From: Planctomycetales bacterium
Lineage (GTDB): Bacteria > Planctomycetota > Planctomycetia > Planctomycetales > Planctomycetaceae
DNA: 64,000 nucleotides
NCBI GenBank assembly: GCA_026400835.1
Contig: JAPLOA010000068.1
Location: 1 to 64,000 of the forward strand
Direction: 5' to 3'
Under the pieces are notes generated by a model. It did no database searches and was not told where the DNA came from. It was given only the letters and a program-made list of their open reading frames with translations. The position numbers and the translations under genes were made by a program. This document shows, piece after piece, positions 41,334 to 52,255 of the stretch; the first letter of the stretch is position 1; every line of letters begins with the position of its first letter.

Positions 41334-42488
41334 TTACTGAGCCGTCGATCGGCTGCCGCTCGGAGAACCAACGATCGGAGTGCCCTCAGGCAAGGGACGG
41401 GCGGCAACTCGCAACTGCAACCCGTGAGCAACTTCACGCAGAGCTGAGAAGCCTTTGAACGAGTCCGGATAGACCCACATCGTAACCACGGAATCGGGCA
41501 GGGTCGTCTCAATTCTCTGGCGATAGCGTGAACCCGGCCGCACAGCTTCTTCGATTGTCTCAGCCACCAGCGAATCATCCGGCGTGATTGTCCAACGCGT
41601 GACGTTCAAACGAGTAATCCCATCACCGGACTGCAAGGCTTCCAACGTTGAAGGTCCATCTTTCTCAACGGTGTAGCTCATCGTATATCCTTCGACCGGT
41701 CCGACATTGCCATCAAACTGGTTGAATCTCATCACAGCCGTGCGGCGAGTCATGACCTGATCCTTCAGCCGCTCAAGCAATTCTTCGAGCGGCACTCGAC
41801 TGATGCGACCTTCACTCACTCTGAAGTGCAGTTCTTCCTTCTCAGCCGGTTTTGTGACTGGTGAAAGTCGATGCTGCAGACGATTCTTTGGAACCGCGGC
41901 TTCTTCGGTCTTTTCCAGAAGTTCACGCAGCTCCTGAGTCTCGGCCACTGTTGTCTCCAGCTTTTTGCTGAGATCCTGTTCAGCCTTCATCGCCGTTGCA
42001 AGAATCCGCCCGGCGTTAAGTGCCTCCCGGCCTTTCTCATCGATCGCAGCCTTCAGCGATGCTACTCTTGCGGCAATCGCGGCTTTGTCAGATTCAAGGT
42101 CGGCGGCCTGCTTGTGAGTTCGATCGGCCTTCTCCTGCAGAGCCAGCAGCTGCTGGTTGGCCAACTCCTGTGCTTCCATGGCCTGCCGAATTTTCTCTTC
42201 CGCTTCTGCACTTTGACTCTCAAGCGTACTGACAGCCTGCGCTGCTTCTGCTTCGGCGGTGTTGAGCTGCTCTAATATTCGCTGACGCTCGGCAAGAATT
42301 GTCGCCTGATCGGCTCGCGTCGCTTCAATTCTCGCAACGGCCAGTGCTTCCTGTTCTCGAGGCTGACGTTGGACCTTCAAACCGACAACAACAATCAGGA
42401 TGATCAAAATGCCAACGATGTTACACACGACGTCCAAAAAGGAGTCGGATCCGAATTCAAGTTCAGGTCGTTGTGCTCGTCGACTCAT
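41334..42488 (-). CDS. ExbD-like long partner subunit with conserved aspartate (B2)
   Basis: A 384-residue protein, last gene of the motor locus. A short basic cytoplasmic N-terminus leads into one membrane helix, F-L-D-V-V-C-N-I-V-G-I-L-I-I-L-I-V-V-V. The Asp at residue 19 aligns with the proton-carrying Asp of ExbD/TolR (P-F-I-D-V-M). A coiled coil of about 150 residues (about 45-195) follows, then a soluble domain (about 210-384) ending in V-Y-P-D-S-F and P-L-P-E-G-T-P-I, which I read as an ExbD-like periplasmic domain. It would form the ion-conducting B subunit with the MotA/ExbB-like protein. No peptidoglycan-binding OmpA domain is visible. The ATG at 42488 lies 71 bases after the B1 stop. 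Confidence 0.75.
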   Translation of the reverse strand: MSRRAQRPELEFGSDSFLDVVCNIVGILIILIVVVGLKVQRQPREQEALAVARIEATRADQATILAERQRILEQLNTAEAEAAQAVSTLESQSAEAEEKIRQAMEAQELANQQLLALQEKADRTHKQAADLESDKAAIAARVASLKAAIDEKGREALNAGRILATAMKAEQDLSKKLETTVAETQELRELLEKTEEAAVPKNRLQHRLSPVTKPAEKEELHFRVSEGRISRVPLEELLERLKDQVMTRRTAVMRFNQFDGNVGPVEGYTMSYTVEKDGPSTLEALQSGDGITRLNVTRWTITPDDSLVAETIEEAVRPGSRYRQRIETTLPDSVVTMWVYPDSFKGFSALREVAHGLQLRVAARPLPEGTPIVGSPSGSRSTAQ

Positions 42489-42559
42489 GGAGTTTGGTTC
42501 TTCTGGAACTCGTTCTGATGCTCGTAAGCAGAATCTCGGCGCCGGAGTTAACTCGCCTT

Positions 42560-44569
42560 TTACTCACCCTCGCCACTCACCCAGGCACGTCCCGTTTCGT
42601 CGGTTGTTGTCATGTAAGGAGTCAACTCATAAACCGTGGCCGATCGAATGCCGGTTCGTTTCAATGAATGAGCCAACGGAATTCGCCACTTCTCACCGCC
42701 AGGGCTCACAATGAACTTGACGATCGGCATGACAGGCTCATCCGGCTTTTTCTTACGATCTTCAACTTCAGCATTGATGCCCGTCAGCAGCAAGACAAAT
42801 GCGTCATCCAACGTATCCGGCGTAATCTCCACGGCCGTCTGCTGATCCACCGTCATATGGTGCTCATCCACAAATACGGTGATGCCAATCGGAGTCATTT
42901 CGCTGCCCGACGGCTGCTTGCCGGAGTTCAGACGATTTAGTAGATCAGGGTCAATGCGAGAAAGATCCGGGATCCCGGTCGCAGGCTGATCGTCCCCAGC
43001 TCCGCTGCTTGTCAACAAGCTTTCCTGAGGGCTCAATGGATCCGATTTCGTCGTCGCAGATTTTGCGAGATCCGACTTCTTCTGCTTTTGTGCCAAAGAT
43101 GACGTGATACTTCCATCGTTCGCAAATAGTGTCTCGGCAAATCGTCGTTCTTCCGGAGATCTCAACGATTCCTCAGATTCCGTCGTGGCTGACACAGGCT
43201 TTTCTGCCGTCTTCGGTCCTTCTTCCGCAATAGTAGTTTTTGCGAGGGCTCGAGCCGACTCGTATTGCCTGGCGTATCGTTCCGCAAATTCATCAGCCAG
43301 TTTCTCAGCATCGGCCGCTGTCATCTGGTCAGCATTCTGACCTCCATAACCGCCGACTGGACGCTTCTGAAAATGCGATTGTGGTGGCGCAACACCCCCT
43401 GCATAAAAGCGGCCATCGACTGGTCGCTGTCGCGACGATTCTTCCATCAACACTCGACCATCCGGACGCACTGTCAGTCTACGCTCCCCTTTGCCGTTCG
43501 CAGGATCACCAGCAGGCCCGGAGGTACCGGACTTCTGCTGAGCAATAGCCATCAACCTGGCATAAAGATTCTCGCGCCGCCGCAAAGCCTCATCGATCGA
43601 CGTTTTAACGAGAGGCACCTCTGTCGAATCCGAGGCTCCTGAGACAATCAACTCCCTGGCCTCCAGCAGCTCGTAACCATAATGAATGTTGGATTCCATC
43701 AGGATTCGTTGGGCACCGTAAAACGGCAATGCCCCATCCGGACGCACCAGCAGCAACACATACGGCGCGCCAGTCACACTGCCTTTTGAACGATGTTGAT
43801 GAATCGTCAGAATCGCGGCCAGAAACGGATTGTCACGAACCGGGAAACCTTCCATATCCGCCTGCGTGATTTGAATCCCATTGGGATAAATCTCAAAACC
43901 CTTCCCGGAAACATCCACCACGATCGGCGTACGTTCCGTGCCTGTCGGATTTGAAAACTCCAGCAATGTGGAAGTACCTGACACTTTGGCCAGGCGGCTT
44001 CGAGCTTCGTCAACCTGATCTCGCAGTTTCAACAGGTCCGAGTGCTTCTCCTGCAGAGCCAATGATGCTTCATTGGAAGCATCCTGAGCGTTCGCAAGCT
44101 GCTGCTGTTTGCTGAGAAGTCGCTTCTCTGTGTCCTTTAACTGCCGCAGCAGAGCAACTTCCTCGGCCTTCAGCTTTCGTGATTCTGCCATCGACTCTGC
44201 GACCGGAACAGCATCAGCGTCCGTGCCTTTGAGCTTCTCCTGAAGCTGAGCCAGTTCTGTCTCAAGGTCTGTAACCCGGACCTGACTTTCGTCAACAGAG
44301 GATCGATGGGCCTGAGCATTAGCCTGCAGCGAATGCAGATTGAGTTCCGCACTGGAGATTTGCTTCTCTAAGGCAGCAATCCGTGCGGCCAGCTCAGCAT
44401 CAACTTCAGATGCTGCCGATTCGACGACGGCGGTCTGTTCTACGTACTGATCCTGTCGCATCTTGCGTGTCATCACCAGCAGCAACAGAATCAGTGATCC
44501 CATGGCGCAGACGAGTACAGCCAGAAACGGAAACAGCGAAATCGAATTGTTGTGATGTCGCCGAGCCAT
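42560..44569 (-). CDS. ExbD-like long partner subunit without the aspartate (B1)
   Basis: A 669-residue protein. The N-terminus carries one membrane helix in the ExbD/MotB position, P-F-L-A-V-L-V-C-A-M-G-S-L-I-L-L-L-L, where the usual P-F-I-D motif has Ala17 in place of Asp. A coiled coil (about 40-195) follows. A globular domain (about 205-345) has Y-V-L-L-L-V-R-P-D-G and Y-G-A-Q-R-I-L-M-E, like the ExbD periplasmic strand-helix pattern. Next comes a polar linker (about 350-550). A second similar domain (about 555-660) contains F-I-V-S-P-G-G-E-K-W-R-I. It would pair with B2 in the channel while not itself carrying protons. It starts 11 bases after the small ORF at 44581-44688. Confidence 0.75.
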   Translation of the reverse strand: MARRHHNNSISLFPFLAVLVCAMGSLILLLLVMTRKMRQDQYVEQTAVVESAASEVDAELAARIAALEKQISSAELNLHSLQANAQAHRSSVDESQVRVTDLETELAQLQEKLKGTDADAVPVAESMAESRKLKAEEVALLRQLKDTEKRLLSKQQQLANAQDASNEASLALQEKHSDLLKLRDQVDEARSRLAKVSGTSTLLEFSNPTGTERTPIVVDVSGKGFEIYPNGIQITQADMEGFPVRDNPFLAAILTIHQHRSKGSVTGAPYVLLLVRPDGALPFYGAQRILMESNIHYGYELLEARELIVSGASDSTEVPLVKTSIDEALRRRENLYARLMAIAQQKSGTSGPAGDPANGKGERRLTVRPDGRVLMEESSRQRPVDGRFYAGGVAPPQSHFQKRPVGGYGGQNADQMTAADAEKLADEFAERYARQYESARALAKTTIAEEGPKTAEKPVSATTESEESLRSPEERRFAETLFANDGSITSSLAQKQKKSDLAKSATTKSDPLSPQESLLTSSGAGDDQPATGIPDLSRIDPDLLNRLNSGKQPSGSEMTPIGITVFVDEHHMTVDQQTAVEITPDTLDDAFVLLLTGINAEVEDRKKKPDEPVMPIVKFIVSPGGEKWRIPLAHSLKRTGIRSATVYELTPYMTTTDETGRAWVSGEGE

Positions 44570-44580
44570 GAATCGTTTGT

Positions 44581-44688
44581 TTACGCCACCTTAAGAAGTG
44601 AACGAGCTTCTTTGAGATCACGATACATCATGAAAAAGTACGTTGGACATTCCTGTCCGACTTGGCCGCGACGGGCAAGAATGCCCAT
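44581..44688 (-). CDS. Candidate 35-residue small protein in the motor operon
   Basis: A 35-codon frame: ATG at 44688, TAA at 44583-44581. GAGGTG directly precedes it (two bases before the ATG; an in-frame GTG at 44691 is the alternative start). It begins 30 bases after the channel-subunit stop (44719) and ends 11 bases before the B1 start (44569), so it fits the gap as an operon gene would. The peptide is basic, starts M-G-I-L-A-R-R-G, has C-P-T-Y-F-F-M-M-Y in the middle and ends in a short charged helix (D-L-K-E-A-R-S-L-L-K). There is no membrane helix. The function is unknown; it may be an assembly or accessory subunit. Confidence 0.55.
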   Translation of the reverse strand: MGILARRGQVGQECPTYFFMMYRDLKEARSLLKVA

Positions 44689-44718
44689 CACACCTCGTTA
44701 TCAACCTGGATGACCGCA

Positions 44719-46101
44719 CTAAGCTGCCACACGCAACGCGGTCTTTGCCGTGAGTACGTTGACTGCCGCATTGAGACTGTTGACGGTCTGTTCCAGAGTG
44801 GCCACAACCTGAAGCGTCTGAAGATTCTTATTCAGCTGTTCCTGAAGCTGGGCCAGACGTTCTTCAGACTCTGTCATCTGCAACAACGTGCGTCCCAGTC
44901 GATGCAGCTCTTCCGCCTGACTGGCTGATGAGAGAGTCGTCGCCTGCATGGCGTTCTGCCACGCATCAACGCGATCGACGAAGGCCATCATCGTAGTCTG
45001 CATTTGCTGCGTGAACGCCTGAGTGCTCCGCTGCAATGACGCCGCGTATTGATCTCGCGACACGTCGATGCTTTCGCGATGAACCTGAAGAGTTTGCTGC
45101 GTTTCCTGATTCAACGCCTGAGCCAGCGTATCTGTCTGCTGAGTAAGAGACTGAGCCCAGTCCGTCTGCAGAGACATCAGATGCCGATTCCAGAACTCCG
45201 TCTGTTGCGTCAGCATCTGAGCAGTCCAGTCGGTCAGTGCCGGGATCCCGGTTGCCTGGTTCGTAGTGGTTTCCGTGGTCAGCGATGGAACCAACTGATC
45301 GATTCCGAACTGTTCAATCTCGTTAAGATTGTTCTGTTCGCCTCGCTCAATCAGGAATGTGCCGAAGACCAGAATCATGGACATCCCGAGAGCCTGAGCT
45401 GTCGTATCAAACGCAACAGCAAGACCAGCGGTGACTTCCGGAAGTGATGAATCCAATTGCTCCGGCGTCACATTGGCAATGGCCATCGTGATCCCCACGA
45501 CGGTACCAAGAAAGCCCATGATCGGGACGGCCCAGGTGACCGTTCGAATCAACGAGTAGCTCTGCAGCAGGCGATCGGACGCAAGGTCGGCAAGGTATCG
45601 CAAGTGGTCTTCAAGTCCGCTGCCGTCTTCTCGATTACGCACATAGTGCAAAACCTCAGTCAGCCGTCGCGCCAAAGCGGTTCGAACAAATCCACTAGAA
45701 TGGGCCTGTTTCTGCCAGCCTGAAATCGATTCGACAACCACCGACGAAGATGACTTTCTGGTCGCCCAGCCGCCCTTTGTCCCTAACTCCGCTACGGATC
45801 GAATGGCTCGGCGTTCGCCCGGCAAAGCAACCAGTTTGGCCGCAAGAATGCCCATCCCCACGAAAAACATCGCTGAGGTTACATACTCCAGAGGATGCCC
45901 GCAGAAATACCGCTGGACAAACTCAGGTCCTCCGGCAAATGGCTTCGCAGCCAGCGGAGCCACAATGTAGAAGACTACCGTCACTCCCAAACCAATCAGC
46001 ATCCCGGTCATGGTCGAGGTGTTTGATGGGGGACGAACAGTCTGCGCTCCTGCGACATTTGACGACGGCAGAGCAGGGGATGTTGATTTTGATGTGGACA
46101 C
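44719..46101 (-). CDS. MotA/TolQ/ExbB-family channel subunit with long tail (A)
   Basis: A 460-residue ion-channel subunit, first gene of the motor locus; GTG start at 46101. Four membrane segments are predicted at about 32-52, 71-93, 188-208 and 222-250. The last two carry the family signatures G-F-L-G-T-V-V-G-I-T-M-A and G-L-A-V-A-F-D-T-T-A-Q-A-L-G, which line the pentameric pore. A cytoplasmic loop (about 94-187) lies before the third helix. The last about 210 residues are a Gln-rich coiled coil, far longer than in ExbB or TolQ. It should form the 5-fold ring around a dimer of the ExbD-like proteins encoded downstream. The long tail recalls ZorA of Zorya defence, but no ZorC, ZorD or ZorE gene is present. 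Confidence 0.88.
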   Translation of the reverse strand: MSTSKSTSPALPSSNVAGAQTVRPPSNTSTMTGMLIGLGVTVVFYIVAPLAAKPFAGGPEFVQRYFCGHPLEYVTSAMFFVGMGILAAKLVALPGERRAIRSVAELGTKGGWATRKSSSSVVVESISGWQKQAHSSGFVRTALARRLTEVLHYVRNREDGSGLEDHLRYLADLASDRLLQSYSLIRTVTWAVPIMGFLGTVVGITMAIANVTPEQLDSSLPEVTAGLAVAFDTTAQALGMSMILVFGTFLIERGEQNNLNEIEQFGIDQLVPSLTTETTTNQATGIPALTDWTAQMLTQQTEFWNRHLMSLQTDWAQSLTQQTDTLAQALNQETQQTLQVHRESIDVSRDQYAASLQRSTQAFTQQMQTTMMAFVDRVDAWQNAMQATTLSSASQAEELHRLGRTLLQMTESEERLAQLQEQLNKNLQTLQVVATLEQTVNSLNAAVNVLTAKTALRVAA

Positions 46102-46392: not shown

Positions 46393-48447
46393 TCAATTGC
46401 CAAGCCCGGGCAGATCGAAACTTGGTGGTCCACCAGCTCCGGGAGCCCCAGCTCCATCGGCTGGCTTCGCTTCTTCTTTCGGACCCACAACAGCTTCACG
46501 TGTCAGCTTGAACTTCTCAAAGCTGTCCGCGGAGATCACGTAATACCAGGCACCAAATCGTTCAGACAGTTCGTCGGCCTTCTTCCTGCCTTCTTTCGCT
46601 TTGCTTTCCCAGGCCTTCAGAGCACCTTCAAAGCCAGCCTTCGCTGCTTCGTATTCACCCATGGCCTGGTCGTACTGCTTCTGAGCTTCTGCTTTGGGAT
46701 CAACAGGCGGCTGAGCAGGTGCTGCCTCCGAAGCATCTCCTTCCGCAGGAGCTGCATTCGCTGGCGTCTCAGCAGCAGGCTTATCACCCTCGGCCGGAGC
46801 AGACTGACCTTCCTGTGCTGGAGCTGCTGCAGTGGGTTCAGCGGGCTTTGCTTCTGCTGCAGGGGCAGCTTCCTGAGCAGGGGCCGCCGGTTCAGCTACG
46901 GCAGAAGGTTCGGCCGCTGCCGGCTCATCACAAGAACCCGGATCCGCAGGCTTTTCCGGAGCTGGTTCAGCCGCCTTCTCAGATGCAGGCGCTTCTTCTC
47001 TCGGTGCTCCTTCCTTTAGCGCGGCATCGGCCGCTGGTTTCTCTTCCGCAGGTGGTCCGGCTTCTTTAGGAGCATCCGCTGGCGCTTCCGGCTTTTTGTC
47101 GTCCGCTGGAGCAGGGGCAGCAGCGTCATTCAGGATGGCAGGCTTCTCTGGAGCAACAGGCTCTGTCGGCTTCGGCCCGAGCAATGATTCATCGTAATCA
47201 ACCTTCACCAACAGATAACGGCGTGGACCCGATTCCGAGTCTTCCGGCTTGGCAGCATCAGCCTCTGCGCCTTCGGCACCCTTTTCGCCATCGGCCTTGG
47301 CTTCTCCACCTTCTGTTTTGGCTTCACCTTCAGCCGGCGTCTTGTCATTGAGGCCAGTCTCGATGTCCTTCGCGGTTCCCCGAGCGATCTCACCGAAGTA
47401 CAACGTGTACCGCACTCCGTTGTTTGTACCCGCAAGCAGCTCGCCTTCGTTGGAAACCAGCTTCACCTGATTGTTTTCACCTCGAGCAATATAGAACCCC
47501 TGTCGCTGCATATCAGTCTGCAGGACCTGACGCATCAATGGATTCTGAGCAACCTCAGGTGAAACAGTCAGGTCCGCATTCAATCCCTCTGGCTTTGGAC
47601 GAACGCCAACGATCTTCAGCTGGTCCAGGTTCTTTGTGATATCCGTAACAGCCGCTTCCTTCAGCGACTCAATGTCCGGATTCAAACCTTTCATGTCCCA
47701 CTTGCTGGTGGTCTTGTCTTTCTGGAAATCAAACACCTCGCCTTGAAGAATCGCGCCTTGCTCTTCGTCGACGGAATACTGATCAACGGTGACCTTGACG
47801 ATGTCGTTCTGATTCAGCTTCAACAAGTCCGGCTCAATCCAATCACTGAACTTCGCTGACAGATCGGCATCCAGCTTCGCGATGAAGACCGGGTTCTTGT
47901 CCGGCTGACGAACGCAAAAGTGTTTTTCTCGACCTTCAACCGCTTTGCCCACGATCAGATCAACCAAAGAGTTGCTGCTGTTGTCTCGCAGCGTAATTCG
48001 GGTCCCGCGTGTTTCTTCTTTTTTATCATCAGCTTCGGGTGCAGCGGCTGCCACCTCAGCACCCGGATCTTCAACACCGTAACGAGCCCAGTCGTCTTTG
48101 CTGCGACTTTGCAGAGCAACCTTTTTGATGCCGATCAGTGACGCAGCCGTTTTGGCCAGACGCTCTGCTGCCTCAGCCGGATAGTCATGGTGCGAAGGAA
48201 TGACCCAGAAACCTTTCTCATTCTGCTTCACTGAGAACGAAAGCGGTTCACGAGTCTCTGCATCGTACTTTACGACACTGAGTTCCATGGCTTTCATTGG
48301 ATCGTTGAAGTCCGCGAAGAACGCCTGACCGACGTCAGAGAATCCCTCCACGGCAGCAGGCTGATTGGCGAATCGAACACCCACCGCGGCAAGAGCAGCA
48401 ACCGCAGCTACTCCAACGAATACCATAGTTCGACTTGTCGCGTTCAT
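46393..48447 (-). CDS. DUF4340-domain membrane-anchored protein
   Basis: A 684-residue protein. I use the ATG at 48447 (M-N-A-T-S-R-T-M), which starts a single membrane anchor (about 8-27); the upstream extension to 48660 has no family character. The extracytoplasmic DUF4340 domain shows paired repeats (W-V-I-P-S-H-H-D-Y-P-A-E-A; L-L-A-G-T-N-N-G-V-R-Y-T-L-Y-F). Near residue 410 is R-Y-L-L-V-K-V-D-Y-D-E-S, and the final family motif, F-G-A-W-Y-Y-V-I, is at about 631. Between them is a roughly 170-residue Ala/Glu/Pro/Lys-rich insert. DUF4340 proteins follow GldF/GldG-type genes and are thought to act with that ABC system; the exact role is unknown. Confidence 0.88.
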   Translation of the reverse strand: MNATSRTMVFVGVAAVAALAAVGVRFANQPAAVEGFSDVGQAFFADFNDPMKAMELSVVKYDAETREPLSFSVKQNEKGFWVIPSHHDYPAEAAERLAKTAASLIGIKKVALQSRSKDDWARYGVEDPGAEVAAAAPEADDKKEETRGTRITLRDNSSNSLVDLIVGKAVEGREKHFCVRQPDKNPVFIAKLDADLSAKFSDWIEPDLLKLNQNDIVKVTVDQYSVDEEQGAILQGEVFDFQKDKTTSKWDMKGLNPDIESLKEAAVTDITKNLDQLKIVGVRPKPEGLNADLTVSPEVAQNPLMRQVLQTDMQRQGFYIARGENNQVKLVSNEGELLAGTNNGVRYTLYFGEIARGTAKDIETGLNDKTPAEGEAKTEGGEAKADGEKGAEGAEADAAKPEDSESGPRRYLLVKVDYDESLLGPKPTEPVAPEKPAILNDAAAPAPADDKKPEAPADAPKEAGPPAEEKPAADAALKEGAPREEAPASEKAAEPAPEKPADPGSCDEPAAAEPSAVAEPAAPAQEAAPAAEAKPAEPTAAAPAQEGQSAPAEGDKPAAETPANAAPAEGDASEAAPAQPPVDPKAEAQKQYDQAMGEYEAAKAGFEGALKAWESKAKEGRKKADELSERFGAWYYVISADSFEKFKLTREAVVGPKEEAKPADGAGAPGAGGPPSFDLPGLGN

Positions 48448-48586
48448 GGAAAAACCTGATTCACAAAAGACTGACAATGAGAAGAGTAATGCCACAAACA
48501 ACAGCACTTCAGTTACACACGTCATTTGGGACTGTCCGGCAACCGCCGGACCATTCAAATGATGTCTGCACCAACAGCCCTCGGCA

Positions 48587-51388
48587 TCAGCTCTTTCTTC
48601 GATTGGGGTTAATGGACTGCTGCTCAGCAAGGTTACGAAGCCCGAGGAACAACATTCCAAAACAGACCGGCAGGATCGCCGGAATAATGCAGGCTACGAT
48701 CTTAACGGTGCTTTCGACTCGACGAATTTCTCGCTTCATCTCCAAACCCGACTTGCGAACTCGAGAATTCAATTGACGCTCCAGTTGTTCCTTCTGAAGC
48801 TCAAGCTGTCGATTCAGCTGCTGTTCTTTCTGACGCATCTGCACGTCCTTGCTGCGAGCATCCAGTTCAGCATTCTCTTCGATCTTTTTAATCTCAGCTC
48901 TAAGCTCTTCTTCAGCTTTCTTCAGAGTAGCGTCCATCTGGTCCTGAGCGTCCTTCTCTTCCTTGTTCAGATCCTTTCTCATTGAACTGGTCTGATCTTC
49001 GACAAACTTCAGAGTTCTCAGACTTGCTCGACGAGACCGCAATGGAATGAAGGTCTCATCACCGGCCAGTGCGTCCACAGCATTCAGAACGAAGGTCACG
49101 TTATCGAACTTAACACCCAACATGCCTCGGTTGCGTTCAAGGAAAAACCAATCGGTGATCATGTCGATATCGGAGCATAAAATCACGTTCAACGGCGACT
49201 CCGCAGACTCGTTCCGAATCTGGGCGGCGATCACATGCGAATCATTATCATCGCGACGACGAGGATTCGGATTGATTTCAACTGACTGCCCCCCGGCAAA
49301 CGGATTGAATGATGGAGCAGTGTAGTCTTCCCAATCCAGCACACCGGACTCACGGCTCGTTCGCAGCAGCGGTATGAATTCCTGCTCTTTGCGACCCGCA
49401 CGATCGATGATCGATCCAGGGTACAGCATCACCAGATCCTGCAGGCTCTTCGAGACTGTGCTCTCTTCACCAAATGGTGAAGACTGATTCCCAGTGCGAG
49501 AAACGAACACATACTCCGGTGGCAGAGTGCCAAATTCGTTGTGGGGATTATTGCGGTCATAAACAACCTGACCGTTGTCCCATTTGACGTTCAACAGATT
49601 CATCAGCGAAGTCGCTTCGCCACCATCAGCCTTTTGCTCCGGTGGCGGGCCACCGCCAAACATGCCCCCGCCCCCACCAGGCTTCGGCAGTTTAGGAGCC
49701 ATCGCCAAACCAGCCTGAGACTGAAAAACAAACGGGCAAGGGTCATCAAAAATCAAAGTCGGCTTTCCGGCCTTGACGTATTCGACCAGATTATCCATCT
49801 GCGGCTGTGTCAGCGAAGAAGGCATTACCGCAACCAAAACATCAAAGCCCTCAGCAGACTTCTTGTCCTTTTCATCAGCGGCCGCCGCATCATCCTTTTT
49901 CTCTTCAGCATCCTTAGCGGCATCTTCGCTTTCGTTCTTCTCTGCCGTCTTTTGGTCATCAACCAGAATGCGCTGAGAAGGATTTACCGCGACAACTTTA
50001 TACTGCTTTTCGAGTTCTCGAACGATCTCCCACTTCCCGCCGCCTTCGCCTTCCGAGGTCGCTCGAGCGTCCGTTACAAGGACACCCACAGTCAGACGCT
50101 TTTCCTGAGACACTGTTCGCAGTGATCGAGTTAGCTCATATTCAATCGGGAGCCCCTTACCAAAGAACGGGATTACCAGTTCATCAGTTGAGCTCTGAAT
50201 AAACGCACCAAGAAACACTTCTGCCTCTTCGCGCTTGCCGTCTCGTTCATACTGCAAACGGACAGGTTCAATTCCTAATGCTCGAGCCTGTTCGGCTTCT
50301 TCACTGAATGGCTCAACCGCAATGTCCCGCCAGGTGATTGCACCGCCGCTGCTCAATTCAAACTCACGCAGCAATCCGCGAAGCTGACGGCGTGTTTCGA
50401 CATAATCTCCCGGCACGTCCGGGCTGATAAACGACTGAATTGTGATCCGCTGAGTTTCCTTCAGACCTTGCAGTGTAGTCTCTGTAGCAGAAGAAAGCGT
50501 GAAGAGATCTTCTGCCGACAAGTCCGCGCGAGCTGGATAAGTCCAGAAGATCGACATCAGGCTAGCGGCCGTAATCAGAACACAACCTGTTCTGATCGCA
50601 AACTGCATCCCCATCCCGACCTGTTGTCCCGCAGACCATCGACGTCGCGAAATCACAATCAGATTCAGATACAGCATGACCGCTGCAAAGAACGCAAACC
50701 AGGCGATCCCGGTGAACGGCAGAACTCCGACACTGAAATCCTGCAGTTGCTGCTGAAGGCTCATGGAAGTCAGACGATTCCGAAGGTCATACAGCTCAGC
50801 CCCCTTGCCGAACAGACCATAAATCCACTCCACAACATCCGTGACGTAATACAACATCACAGGCACACAGCAAAAAACGACTCCCAGCACGAACGCGACG
50901 GTCGAGCTGCTGGTCAAAGATGAAGCCAGCATTCCGGCGGCAAGCAATGCACCGCCGGCGAGCAGATAACCAACATAACTGCTGATCACGGCTCCCATAT
51001 CAGGCGAACCCAGCCAGATCAGAACGAGAACATTGACCAACGAAAACGCTAAGGCCACAGAATAGACACCGAACACGGCCAGATATTTCCCAGCCAAAAC
51101 TTCGATTTCCGTCGACGGCATCGTGAACAGCAATTCGTCTGTTCCCAGCTTTCGCTCGTCGGACCACGCTGTCATCGTGATCGCAGGGATCACGAACAGC
51201 AGTAGCCAGGGAAACCCGGTAGTCAATTGATCGAGCGTTGCCTGATTAGCGGCAAAAAAGGAAGCCGAAAATGCCATTGCGGCCGAGGCAACGCAGAACA
51301 CCAGGATAAAGAGATATCCGAGAATCCCAGAGAAGTAACTGCGGAAATTCCGCTTGGCTACCGCCAGAATCACATGACTGCGAAACAT
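48587..51388 (-). CDS. ABC-2 permease fused to a GldG-like protein
   Basis: About 933 residues. The ATG at 51388 has AAGGTG upstream; the frame extends to a TTG at 51460. The N-terminal part (about 1-290) is an ABC-2 permease with six or more membrane segments (F-R-S-Y-F-S-G-I-L-G-Y-L-F and D-E-R-K-L-G-T-D-E-L-L-F-T-M-P, the GldF-type signature). The C-terminal part is the GldG/ABC_transp_aux domain (about 300-800; L-K-E-T-Q-R-I-T-I-Q-S-F-I-S and V-G-V-L-V-T-D-A-R). It ends in a charged coiled coil (about 800-880) and a last membrane helix near 905. An acidic Glu/Lys-rich insert lies near 480-510. GldF and GldG are separate proteins in gliding Bacteroidetes; here they are one chain. It follows the GldA-like ATPase gene. 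Confidence 0.92.
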   Translation of the reverse strand: MFRSHVILAVAKRNFRSYFSGILGYLFILVFCVASAAMAFSASFFAANQATLDQLTTGFPWLLLFVIPAITMTAWSDERKLGTDELLFTMPSTEIEVLAGKYLAVFGVYSVALAFSLVNVLVLIWLGSPDMGAVISSYVGYLLAGGALLAAGMLASSLTSSSTVAFVLGVVFCCVPVMLYYVTDVVEWIYGLFGKGAELYDLRNRLTSMSLQQQLQDFSVGVLPFTGIAWFAFFAAVMLYLNLIVISRRRWSAGQQVGMGMQFAIRTGCVLITAASLMSIFWTYPARADLSAEDLFTLSSATETTLQGLKETQRITIQSFISPDVPGDYVETRRQLRGLLREFELSSGGAITWRDIAVEPFSEEAEQARALGIEPVRLQYERDGKREEAEVFLGAFIQSSTDELVIPFFGKGLPIEYELTRSLRTVSQEKRLTVGVLVTDARATSEGEGGGKWEIVRELEKQYKVVAVNPSQRILVDDQKTAEKNESEDAAKDAEEKKDDAAAADEKDKKSAEGFDVLVAVMPSSLTQPQMDNLVEYVKAGKPTLIFDDPCPFVFQSQAGLAMAPKLPKPGGGGGMFGGGPPPEQKADGGEATSLMNLLNVKWDNGQVVYDRNNPHNEFGTLPPEYVFVSRTGNQSSPFGEESTVSKSLQDLVMLYPGSIIDRAGRKEQEFIPLLRTSRESGVLDWEDYTAPSFNPFAGGQSVEINPNPRRRDDNDSHVIAAQIRNESAESPLNVILCSDIDMITDWFFLERNRGMLGVKFDNVTFVLNAVDALAGDETFIPLRSRRASLRTLKFVEDQTSSMRKDLNKEEKDAQDQMDATLKKAEEELRAEIKKIEENAELDARSKDVQMRQKEQQLNRQLELQKEQLERQLNSRVRKSGLEMKREIRRVESTVKIVACIIPAILPVCFGMLFLGLRNLAEQQSINPNRRKS

Positions 51389-51508
51389 GCACACACCTTC
51401 GCTCTGGATAAGAATCGGAAATCTGCCAACCGAAATTTCGAACGCTAGTGAGTCGTTCAAACCGGCTCAGCAGACCATGAATCAAAAGGAAACAAGTCGA
51501 GGCCTCAG

Positions 51509-52255
51509 TTACGCAGCACTGTGAGTCAGCTTGCGGAACTGCTTTTCCATGTCGACTTCGTTGTTGCCCAGATCACCCGTTGGACCATCAAACACTACGC
51601 GCCCATTATTCACCATCACCACTCGACTACAGACCGCGCGAACTTCCTGCAGAATGTGAGTCGACAACAGAATCGTCTTTGTCTTCGCCAACTCAAGAAT
51701 AAGGTCTCGAACACCATGGACCTGATTCGGATCAAGACCGCTGGTCGGTTCGTCCAGAATCAAAACATCGGGATCGTGCAACATCGCATGCGCCATTCCG
51801 ACTCGCTGACGAAACCCGCGTGACAACTTCGAGATCGGCTTCCGCCAGACTTCCGCAAGCGAACACTTGTCAGAAACCCAGGCCATCCGCTTGGCGAGCT
51901 GGTCGCCCTTCAAGCCGCGAACTTCACCCATGTACTGCAGCAATGTCTCCGGGGTCATCTCGACATAGAGAGGCCCGTTCTCTGGCAGATACCCCAGATG
52001 CTCACTGGCTGCAATGCGGTTCTCCGCAACATTGTAGCCCGCAAGAAATGCTTCGCCGCGACTGGGCGAAAGGAACCCTGTCAACATTTTCATGGTCGTA
52101 CTTTTCCCGGCGCCGTTCGGCCCGAGAAACGCACAAACCTGCCCGCGTGGCACCGAAAACGTAACGTCCCGAGTCGCCGCAAATTCTCCGTAAAACTTGC
52201 TCAGCCCGCGGGCTTCGATCATCACATCAGACGAAGTGCTGGATTTTGAACTCAT
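51509..52255 (-). CDS. ABC transporter ATPase (GldA-like)
   Basis: A 248-residue ATP-binding subunit that powers the membrane protein encoded next. Walker A is G-P-N-G-A-G-K-S-T (about residues 45-53), the signature is L-S-R-G-F-R-Q-R, Walker B is V-L-I-L-D-E-P-T-S-G-L-D, and the switch His is in L-L-S-T-H-I-L. The Y-L-P-E-N-G-P-L-Y sequence in the Q-loop region is typical of the GldA/ABC-2 group. The short N-terminal tail is Ser-rich. It is first of the three-gene operon with the GldF-GldG fusion (120 bases on) and DUF4340. The transported substrate is unknown; such systems act on the cell envelope. Confidence 0.93.
   Translation of the reverse strand: MSSKSSTSSDVMIEARGLSKFYGEFAATRDVTFSVPRGQVCAFLGPNGAGKSTTMKMLTGFLSPSRGEAFLAGYNVAENRIAASEHLGYLPENGPLYVEMTPETLLQYMGEVRGLKGDQLAKRMAWVSDKCSLAEVWRKPISKLSRGFRQRVGMAHAMLHDPDVLILDEPTSGLDPNQVHGVRDLILELAKTKTILLSTHILQEVRAVCSRVVMVNNGRVVFDGPTGDLGNNEVDMEKQFRKLTHSAA

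Follow-up and report, generated by a model that had tools for sequence, protein, structure and literature searches.

Rotary ion-driven motors of the MotAB, ExbBD and ZorAB kinds are currently modelled with two identical axle subunits and an acid on each. Whether both acids are needed is the question raised by a locus in a Planctomycetales bacterium (GCA_026400835.1), where a MotA/TolQ/ExbB-type ring protein (A) is followed on the same, minus, strand by two unlike single-helix proteins, B1 and then B2, only one of which has an aspartate (Asp) at the position of the essential Asp of ExbD. The window is the whole stretch of 64,000 nucleotides that was analysed, positions 1–64,000 of contig JAPLOA010000068.1. 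We propose that B1 and B2 form a heterodimeric axle within a ring of A that normally holds one ion-carrying Asp and, as the best explanation of the whole, give this reading a probability of roughly 0.6.

B1 and B2 at the membrane

Hydropathy shows a single strongly hydrophobic segment in B1 and in B2, at residues 15–33 and 17–35, respectively. B1 contains SLFPFLAVLVCAMG, with the motif FPFLAV and alanine (Ala) at residue 17, and B2 contains SDSFLDVVCNIVG, with the motif SFLDV and Asp at residue 19. Comparison of the two profiles with hhalign gave a probability of 98.3 (E=1.8e-14) and set Asp19 opposite Ala17. The predicted structure of B2 has a membrane helix at residues 15–40 and one helix at 54–195, and that of B1 has helices at 13–118 and 123–197. 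An earlier note on this DNA had described the three-gene layout with its coordinates and the lengths of the two partners, one membrane helix in each partner and the Ala17/Asp19 pair, and all of these hold in the window.

The split between Ala in B1 and Asp in B2 is the rule among homologues but is not invariant, as Asp/Asp pairs and acidic B1 proteins exist. Over 120 loci (L042-L161; L and G denote our numbers for loci and genomes), some genomes being counted twice, the B1/B2 pair is Ala/Asp in 84, threonine (Thr)/Asp in 4 and Asp/Asp in 9; L080 and L081, which belong to a paralogous system described below and have serine (Ser) in B1, stand apart, and 21 loci were unreadable at one or both sites. 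B1 was unread in seven loci of a family without A, in 12 loci cut at a contig end and in two with no B1 in the stretch. Invariance among homologues, which the earlier note had set as a check, fails, with Asp at both sites in 9 of the 97 family loci read at both (L080 and L081 left out, some genomes again counted twice). Such homologues refute invariance and not a heterodimer, because the acid arises where a B subunit in the ring lumen would carry it.

Among 109 distinct B1 sequences, which were collected by a motif pattern and include loci added later, residue 17 is Ala in 83, Asp in 18, Thr in 4, Ser in 3 and glutamate (Glu) in 1 (90 non-acidic and 19 acidic); acid is enriched in this set because genomes with a replaced ring protein, described below, were sought. 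The essential-acid position of an axle helix is filled in B2, with Asp in all 98 distinct sequences read, and in B1 is taken by Ala17 in the window and filled in those 19 sequences and in one further B1, that of genome G297. Across residues 12–33 of the 109 B1 proteins charge occurs at site 17 alone, and all 19 cases are acidic; the collecting pattern left positions 17, 20–23 and 25–33 free and restricted the others. Two of the free positions are nearly fixed, cysteine (Cys) 21 in 101 of 109 and leucine (Leu) 26 in 107 of 109.

A itself matches the Pfam family MotA_ExbB (PF01618) at 3.3e-11, above the cut-off, and so belongs to the MotA/TolQ/ExbB family. Its hydropathy peaks at residues 34–52, 74–92, 184–209 and 233–251 and then leaves a tail of ∼210 residues, in agreement with the four membrane helices and 210-residue tail noted earlier. 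Thr200, Thr233 and Thr234, which by analogy with ExbB and MotA we take to face the pore, are conserved in A proteins near a non-acidic B1 (66, 65 and 66 of 67, respectively, with Asp232 in 66 of 67) and are present in 7–8 of the 8 near an Asp B1. When A, B1 and B2 alone were run against PADLOC, the best profile for A was ZorA2 (1e-9), and ZorB was not matched by any of the three at E up to 0.01; an NCBIfam scan of nine proteins gave A to ZorA2 (0.0074) as its sole Zor match. The best Protein Data Bank (PDB) match of the A profile is 8vvi, type II ZorAB (PMC11890865), and when the sequences of A alone, of B1 and of B2 were run against the PDB, just coiled-coil or tail matches came back. Foldseek searches with the B2 and B1 models gave no match at E of 0.001 or better, the results of VIA-align for the B1 model were filled by long helices, and neither B1 nor B2 gave an OmpA-like Pfam match at E ≤1.

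Joint variation of the rods

Rod length was measured as the stretch between the membrane site and the start of the first folded domain. The rods of B1 and B2 vary jointly, from 142 to 287 residues, with a Pearson correlation of 0.86–0.87 over 95–96 loci (0.83 without the longest pair) and a Spearman correlation of 0.71–0.72; their median difference is 6 residues and their mean absolute difference 9.6, versus 21.2 when shuffled. Phylogenetic contrasts gave 0.83 (0.73 without the longest pair), and the corresponding controls gave 0.02 for A length with B2 rod, 0.10 for B2 domain with B1 rod and 0.43 for B1 spacer with B2 rod. The same three controls on raw lengths were −0.06, 0.35 and 0.50, and the first domain of B1 with the B2 rod gave −0.45. 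At eight loci the two rods differ by more than 22 residues. There was no sign of opposite charges on the two coils (−7 in B1 and −9 in B2).

The earlier note had proposed a heterodimer of which only one side conducts. We infer a heterodimer within one ring from the aligned membrane segments, the co-varying rods, the position of the B1 acid at the ExbD-Asp site and the composition of the G297 B1 described below; in the window only B2 is acidic, and what does not stand is that this holds in every homologue. Alternatively, two homodimeric motors could share A, with A and (B2)2 conducting and A and (B1)2 non-conducting or regulatory, much as Aquifex MotA may work with both MotB1 and MotB2. Operons with one A and two B genes exist, the membrane parts of Aquifex MotB1 and MotB2 each worked weakly with MotA according to excerpts of the report (PMC4525482), and a common gap could equalise the rods. 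However, a non-conducting (B1)2 would have to persist class-wide with its membrane segment nearly unchanged at Cys21 and Leu26, the rods track each other and not the length of A, and B1 and B2 stay adjacent and are both altered in a family without A. We regard two homodimers around a shared ring as unlikely.

Changes of the B1 acid and of the ring

On the B2 tree (86 rows) four changes of the B1 acid are needed, likewise four on the B1 tree (85 rows, site masked), and in both all are forced by well-supported branches. The acid rows are nested among Ala rows (L110-L117 with L112, L121 and L124; L147 with L061; L120 and L141 with L155), which leads us to read the changes, on trees that are unrooted, as probable gains of acid in B1. 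Ala to Asp is one base change in the standard code. In genome G297 the first 57 residues of B1 (L250:415-3333, 973 residues) are instead of B2 type, with Asp (B2 profile, 1.3e-23), and the protein past residue 57 matches the B1 profile (1.9e-128); its membrane segment agrees with the nearest B2 at 24 of 29 residues versus 11 for the nearest B1.

These segments bear on whether B1 could act as a TolA- or TonB-like accessory that transmits force, its helix lying outside the ring and its distal domain reached by a long spacer. The ∼200 mostly low-confidence spacer residues and second distal domain of the B1 model would suit that role, as would the non-acidic site in most loci. Yet the membrane segment of B1 is homologous to that of B2 and in register with it, charge appears there only as an acid at the ExbD-Asp site, and the G297 B1 uses a B2-type segment. 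These features would not be expected of a helix outside the ring, and a transducer of this kind seems improbable to us.

The history of A differs from that of its partners. Eight of the 75 A proteins in a tree lie near an acidic B1, and seven of these fall into a single, fully supported clade, whereas their B1 and B2 do not group so. Constraining the L110-L117 A with the L121/L124 A, as the B trees would have it, was rejected by the approximately unbiased (AU) test (p=2e-40), as was placing the L147 A with the L061 A (p=1e-65). This replaced ring differs from the usual form at near-invariant sites (G203 to His, D232 to Asn, W190 to Gly and S241 to Ala) and occurs in 29 of 397 class genomes at E <1e-130, the next match being at 5e-73.

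Acid in B1 appears mostly to accompany the replaced ring, although the link is not strict. Where the replaced ring lies near B1, B1 has Asp in nine of nine loci, and near the window form of the ring it has Ala or Ser in ten of ten (visual reading for seven residues; the nine include three loci that had appeared earlier, and the ten include one). In a survey of 50 named genomes, obtained from 66 readable loci by leaving out mostly the window's own genus, the replaced ring was present in 8 of 9 genomes with Asp in B1 versus 5 of 41 with Ala or Thr (Fisher p=1.9e-5, kinship ignored). A rule by which the replaced ring always brings an acid in B1 failed on 20 genomes (including G385, already linked beforehand), where the site was Ala in 11, Asp in 6, Glu in 1 and Ser in 1 and the G297 B1 had its B2-type Asp segment. 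Four of the 11 Ala genomes (G196, G220, G374 and G048) also hold a window-type A beside B1, so the counter-cases are seven Ala genomes and the Ser genome.

Some further ring genes were noted in passing. The only A match in G297 at E up to 1e-25 is a replaced ring. In G025 (L297) the A adjoining an Asp B1 is without the pore threonines (GLLGLVLG, AFAPLA), and a replaced ring lies elsewhere in the genome. Lone replaced-type ring genes occur away from B1 and B2 (L200-L210, L213-L216, L218 and L219), and visual inspection of 13 loci (with L197 and L198) revealed no neighbour in common.

Loci without A and a paralogous system

In seven loci of one family (L071-L076 and L078) the relatives of B1 and B2 lack the motif and have no A close by; the A profile at best reaches 2.4e-34 in these genomes, short of A genes proper. 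We count this joint absence in favour of the proposed motor. The same family could be cited for the view that the Ala form is decaying, or is an ion-leak-free sensor that relays force or position across the envelope with motor function gone, as it keeps B1 and B2 without family-type A and without the motif, and the window form has one acid left. Decay would not preserve Asp in every B2 read and the ring threonines in 65–66 of 67 A proteins, however, and we consider a sensor or a decaying motor highly improbable.

The genome of the window also holds a paralogous set. Judged by eye, its A opens with a stretch that resembles a zinc ribbon; its B1 has Ser at the position of Ala17 and its B2 has Asp. 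In this system (L011, L080, L081, L259 and L313-L316) Ser was found in 7 of 7 B1 and Asp in 7 of 7 B2 read, L317 and L318 giving neither; its distribution is patchy, with 6 of 149 genomes of the phylum containing it. The Ser/Asp pair suggests that the asymmetry of B1 and B2 probably predates both systems or arose twice. Two other sets were seen: at L003, in the window's genome, ExbB is followed by two ExbD genes, both with Asp, and at L010 a short MotA/ExbB-family protein precedes an ExbD-like protein that has Asp (LTPLLDLL) and, past the membrane helix, a charged stretch that is probably helical.

Distribution

Relatives of B2 were found in 49 of 58 sampled relatives besides the genome itself, 33 of 36 in the family and 16 of 22 in the rest of the class. 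A phylum-wide draw of 294 genomes gave 21 matches, 16 in the family, four more in the class and one weak match outside it; one family genome without a match is among the 41 of the 294 that were listed. A scan of named genomes found 386 relatives, and among the best 80 (L082-L161) the titles name planctomycetes in all but L108 ('bacterium'). Among 40 loci chosen for a B2 match, 33 (including L080 and L081 of the paralogous kind) keep A, B1 and B2 in this order on one strand, which argues that the arrangement is not due to chance. From its distribution and kept gene order the system is, as far as sequences can tell, widespread and largely vertical in inheritance. That almost every sampled genome of the family has it favours a housekeeping role at the envelope, and for the same reason a defence role like that of Zorya was dropped.

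Features of the locus

Positions of the features are collected in Table 1. Upstream of A, at 46393-52255 on the minus strand, lie genes for a DUF4340 protein, a GldF/GldG-like fusion and a GldA-like ATPase. These ABC genes were set aside as motor partners because, of 40 relative loci (not all long enough to reveal them), the near-identical G004 alone has them next to the motor. Pfam scans of 19 open reading frames (ORFs) of the window, A, B1 and B2 included, gave no match to TolA, TonB, TolB or Pal, and agree with the earlier remark that OmpA, TonB and Pal are not nearby.

Table 1. Positions of the motor genes and their parts in the window, with the basis of each assignment.
Feature	Positions	Strand	Basis
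A, 460 amino acids (aa), GTG start, MotA/TolQ/ExbB-type ring protein with long predicted cytoplasmic tail	44719..46101	-	Pfam MotA_ExbB 3.3e-11; PADLOC ZorA2 1e-9; hydropathy
A residues 184-251, last two hydrophobic segments, including Thr200, Asp232, Thr233 and Thr234	45349..45552	-	Conservation in A proteins
A residues 252-460, tail, cytoplasmic by MotA/ExbB topology	44722..45348	-	Sequence; topology inferred from family
B1, 669 aa, proposed axle subunit, non-acidic at ExbD-Asp position	42560..44569	-	ORF list; B1 alignments
B1 residues 13-33, transmembrane part of helix 13-118	44471..44533	-	Hydropathy 2.91 at 15-33; model
B1 Ala17 codon, opposite B2 Asp19	44519..44521	-	hhalign pairing; 109 distinct B1
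B1 residues 38-197, predicted long helix / coiled coil	43979..44458	-	Model helices 13-118 and 123-197
B1 residues 214-301, predicted first folded alpha/beta domain	43667..43930	-	Model strands 216-301; invariant G210, P215, Y270, G298-L301
B1 residues 559-647, predicted second folded domain, beyond ∼200-residue largely low-confidence spacer	42629..42895	-	Model
B2, 384 aa, proposed axle subunit with putative ion-carrying Asp	41334..42488	-	ORF list; B2 alignments
B2 residues 15-40, predicted transmembrane helix	42369..42446	-	Model
B2 Asp19 codon gac	42432..42434	-	Asp in 98/98 distinct B2 read
B2 residues 54-195, predicted single long helix / coiled coil	41904..42329	-	Model, predicted local distance difference test (pLDDT) mostly >90
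B2 residues 217-384, predicted periplasmic domain, TolR as best fold match	41337..41840	-	Fold comparison

Discussion

We propose that a ring of A, a pentamer by analogy, would surround an axle of one B1 and one B2, whose single helices would both pass through the ring lumen and continue as a side-by-side rod of ∼140–160 residues (∼21–24 nm by helix geometry). Each rod would end in folded domains, that of B2 perhaps resembling TolR. On this reading the system would be an asymmetric member of the 5:2 ion-driven motors (MotAB, ExbBD, TolQR, ZorAB and GldLM). Ions would be taken up at Asp19 of B2 and handed along the ring threonines, and B1, with Ala at the matching place, would carry none in the window form, which would leave one power stroke per A subunit per turn in place of two. 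Several lineages would have gained a second acid in B1, mostly with a replaced ring and once by way of the membrane segment of B2. The long spacer and second domain of B1 may form a force-passing arm.

Several points weigh against this heterodimeric axle. Neither B1 nor B2 matched ExbD/TolR (PF02472) at E up to 1, HMMER filters dropping most matches above ∼0.1, and hhalign found no significant similarity between the two and four ExbD proteins encoded in the same genome (the short best pairing of B1, also not significant, sets TPMIDV opposite FPFLAV). Some control lengths correlate as well, and equal rods would also be expected of two homodimers that span the same gap. Independent-pair tests of the link between acid and ring were not significant (median p of 0.5 and 0.25); among 72 rows, with 15 further loci in which the script had not detected B1 left out, 11 combine a replaced ring with a non-acidic B1 and one (L152) has the acid without a replaced ring. 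The family without A has, in all five loci read (L071, L072, L074, L075 and L078), a Glu in the new membrane segment of its B1, which is unexplained. L109 has kept the motif although its 3.8 Mb genome record, which may be incomplete, yielded no A. Finally, both the pairing of B1 with B2 and the entry of B1 into the ring are steps that we propose from sequence comparison.

A broader form of the proposal has a class-wide asymmetric rotary motor, A5:B1:B2, with a single axle acid by default and half the strokes per turn, in which the count of acids has alternated between one and two on four or more occasions, mostly alongside another ring protein and once via a B2 segment; we see the odds on this form as even. 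If the heterodimeric axle is correct, a second acid site would not be required, and nature would already have set up, in these loci, an experiment on the need for two alternating sites in rotary motors, with step size, torque and stoichiometry comparable between close homologues. Planctomycetes, whose envelope machines are little known, would gain a widespread force generator with a rod that could be long enough to cross the periplasm.

Comparison with known systems

The earlier note knew of no described system like this one. For the layout that does not stand, since one A with two B proteins is known from AglRQS of Myxococcus xanthus, from Aquifex aeolicus and, as a further instance, from the Myxococcus ExbB-ExbD1-ExbD2 set; a described single-Asp motor was not found in the literature searched, in which not all searches were aimed there and most subscription journals were outside coverage.

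With ExbBD and TolQR the planctomycete system shares the conserved ring threonines and, in B2, an Asp helix and a putatively TolR-like domain; it differs in having two unlike B subunits with normally one acid, and in the 19 ORFs without TonB, TolA, TolB or Pal. In the excerpts of the Zorya report available to us, ZorAB is a 5:2 complex in which a ZorB dimer has a critical Asp and a peptidoglycan-binding domain and ZorA has a long cytoplasmic tail (PMC11890865). A likewise best matches ZorA2 in PADLOC and 8vvi and has a long tail predicted to be cytoplasmic, whereas the planctomycete system has two B proteins, gives no ZorB match and is present in nearly all sampled genomes of the family.

In Aquifex, one A gene and the two B genes MotB1 and MotB2 lie in one operon, the membrane regions of the two B proteins differ by one residue (Gly20/Ser20), and the membrane part of each worked, weakly, as a chimera with MotA in E. 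coli, again from excerpts (PMC4525482). The one-residue difference implies Asp in both MotB proteins; in the window system the two membrane segments are unlike and only one has the acid. AglRQS also combines one MotA/TolQ/ExbB protein with two unlike ExbD/TolR-like partners, AglQ (162 residues) and AglS (194 residues), both matching Pfam ExbD/TolR in the part of the description seen (PMC3169522). A second account, likewise available in part, predicts a mid-membrane Asp in both AglQ and AglS and states that whether they form hetero- or homodimers is unknown (PMC9389320). The planctomycete system departs from AglRQS in its B1, which is without the Asp in most lineages, in the lack of an ExbD/TolR Pfam match and in the long coiled coils of both B proteins.

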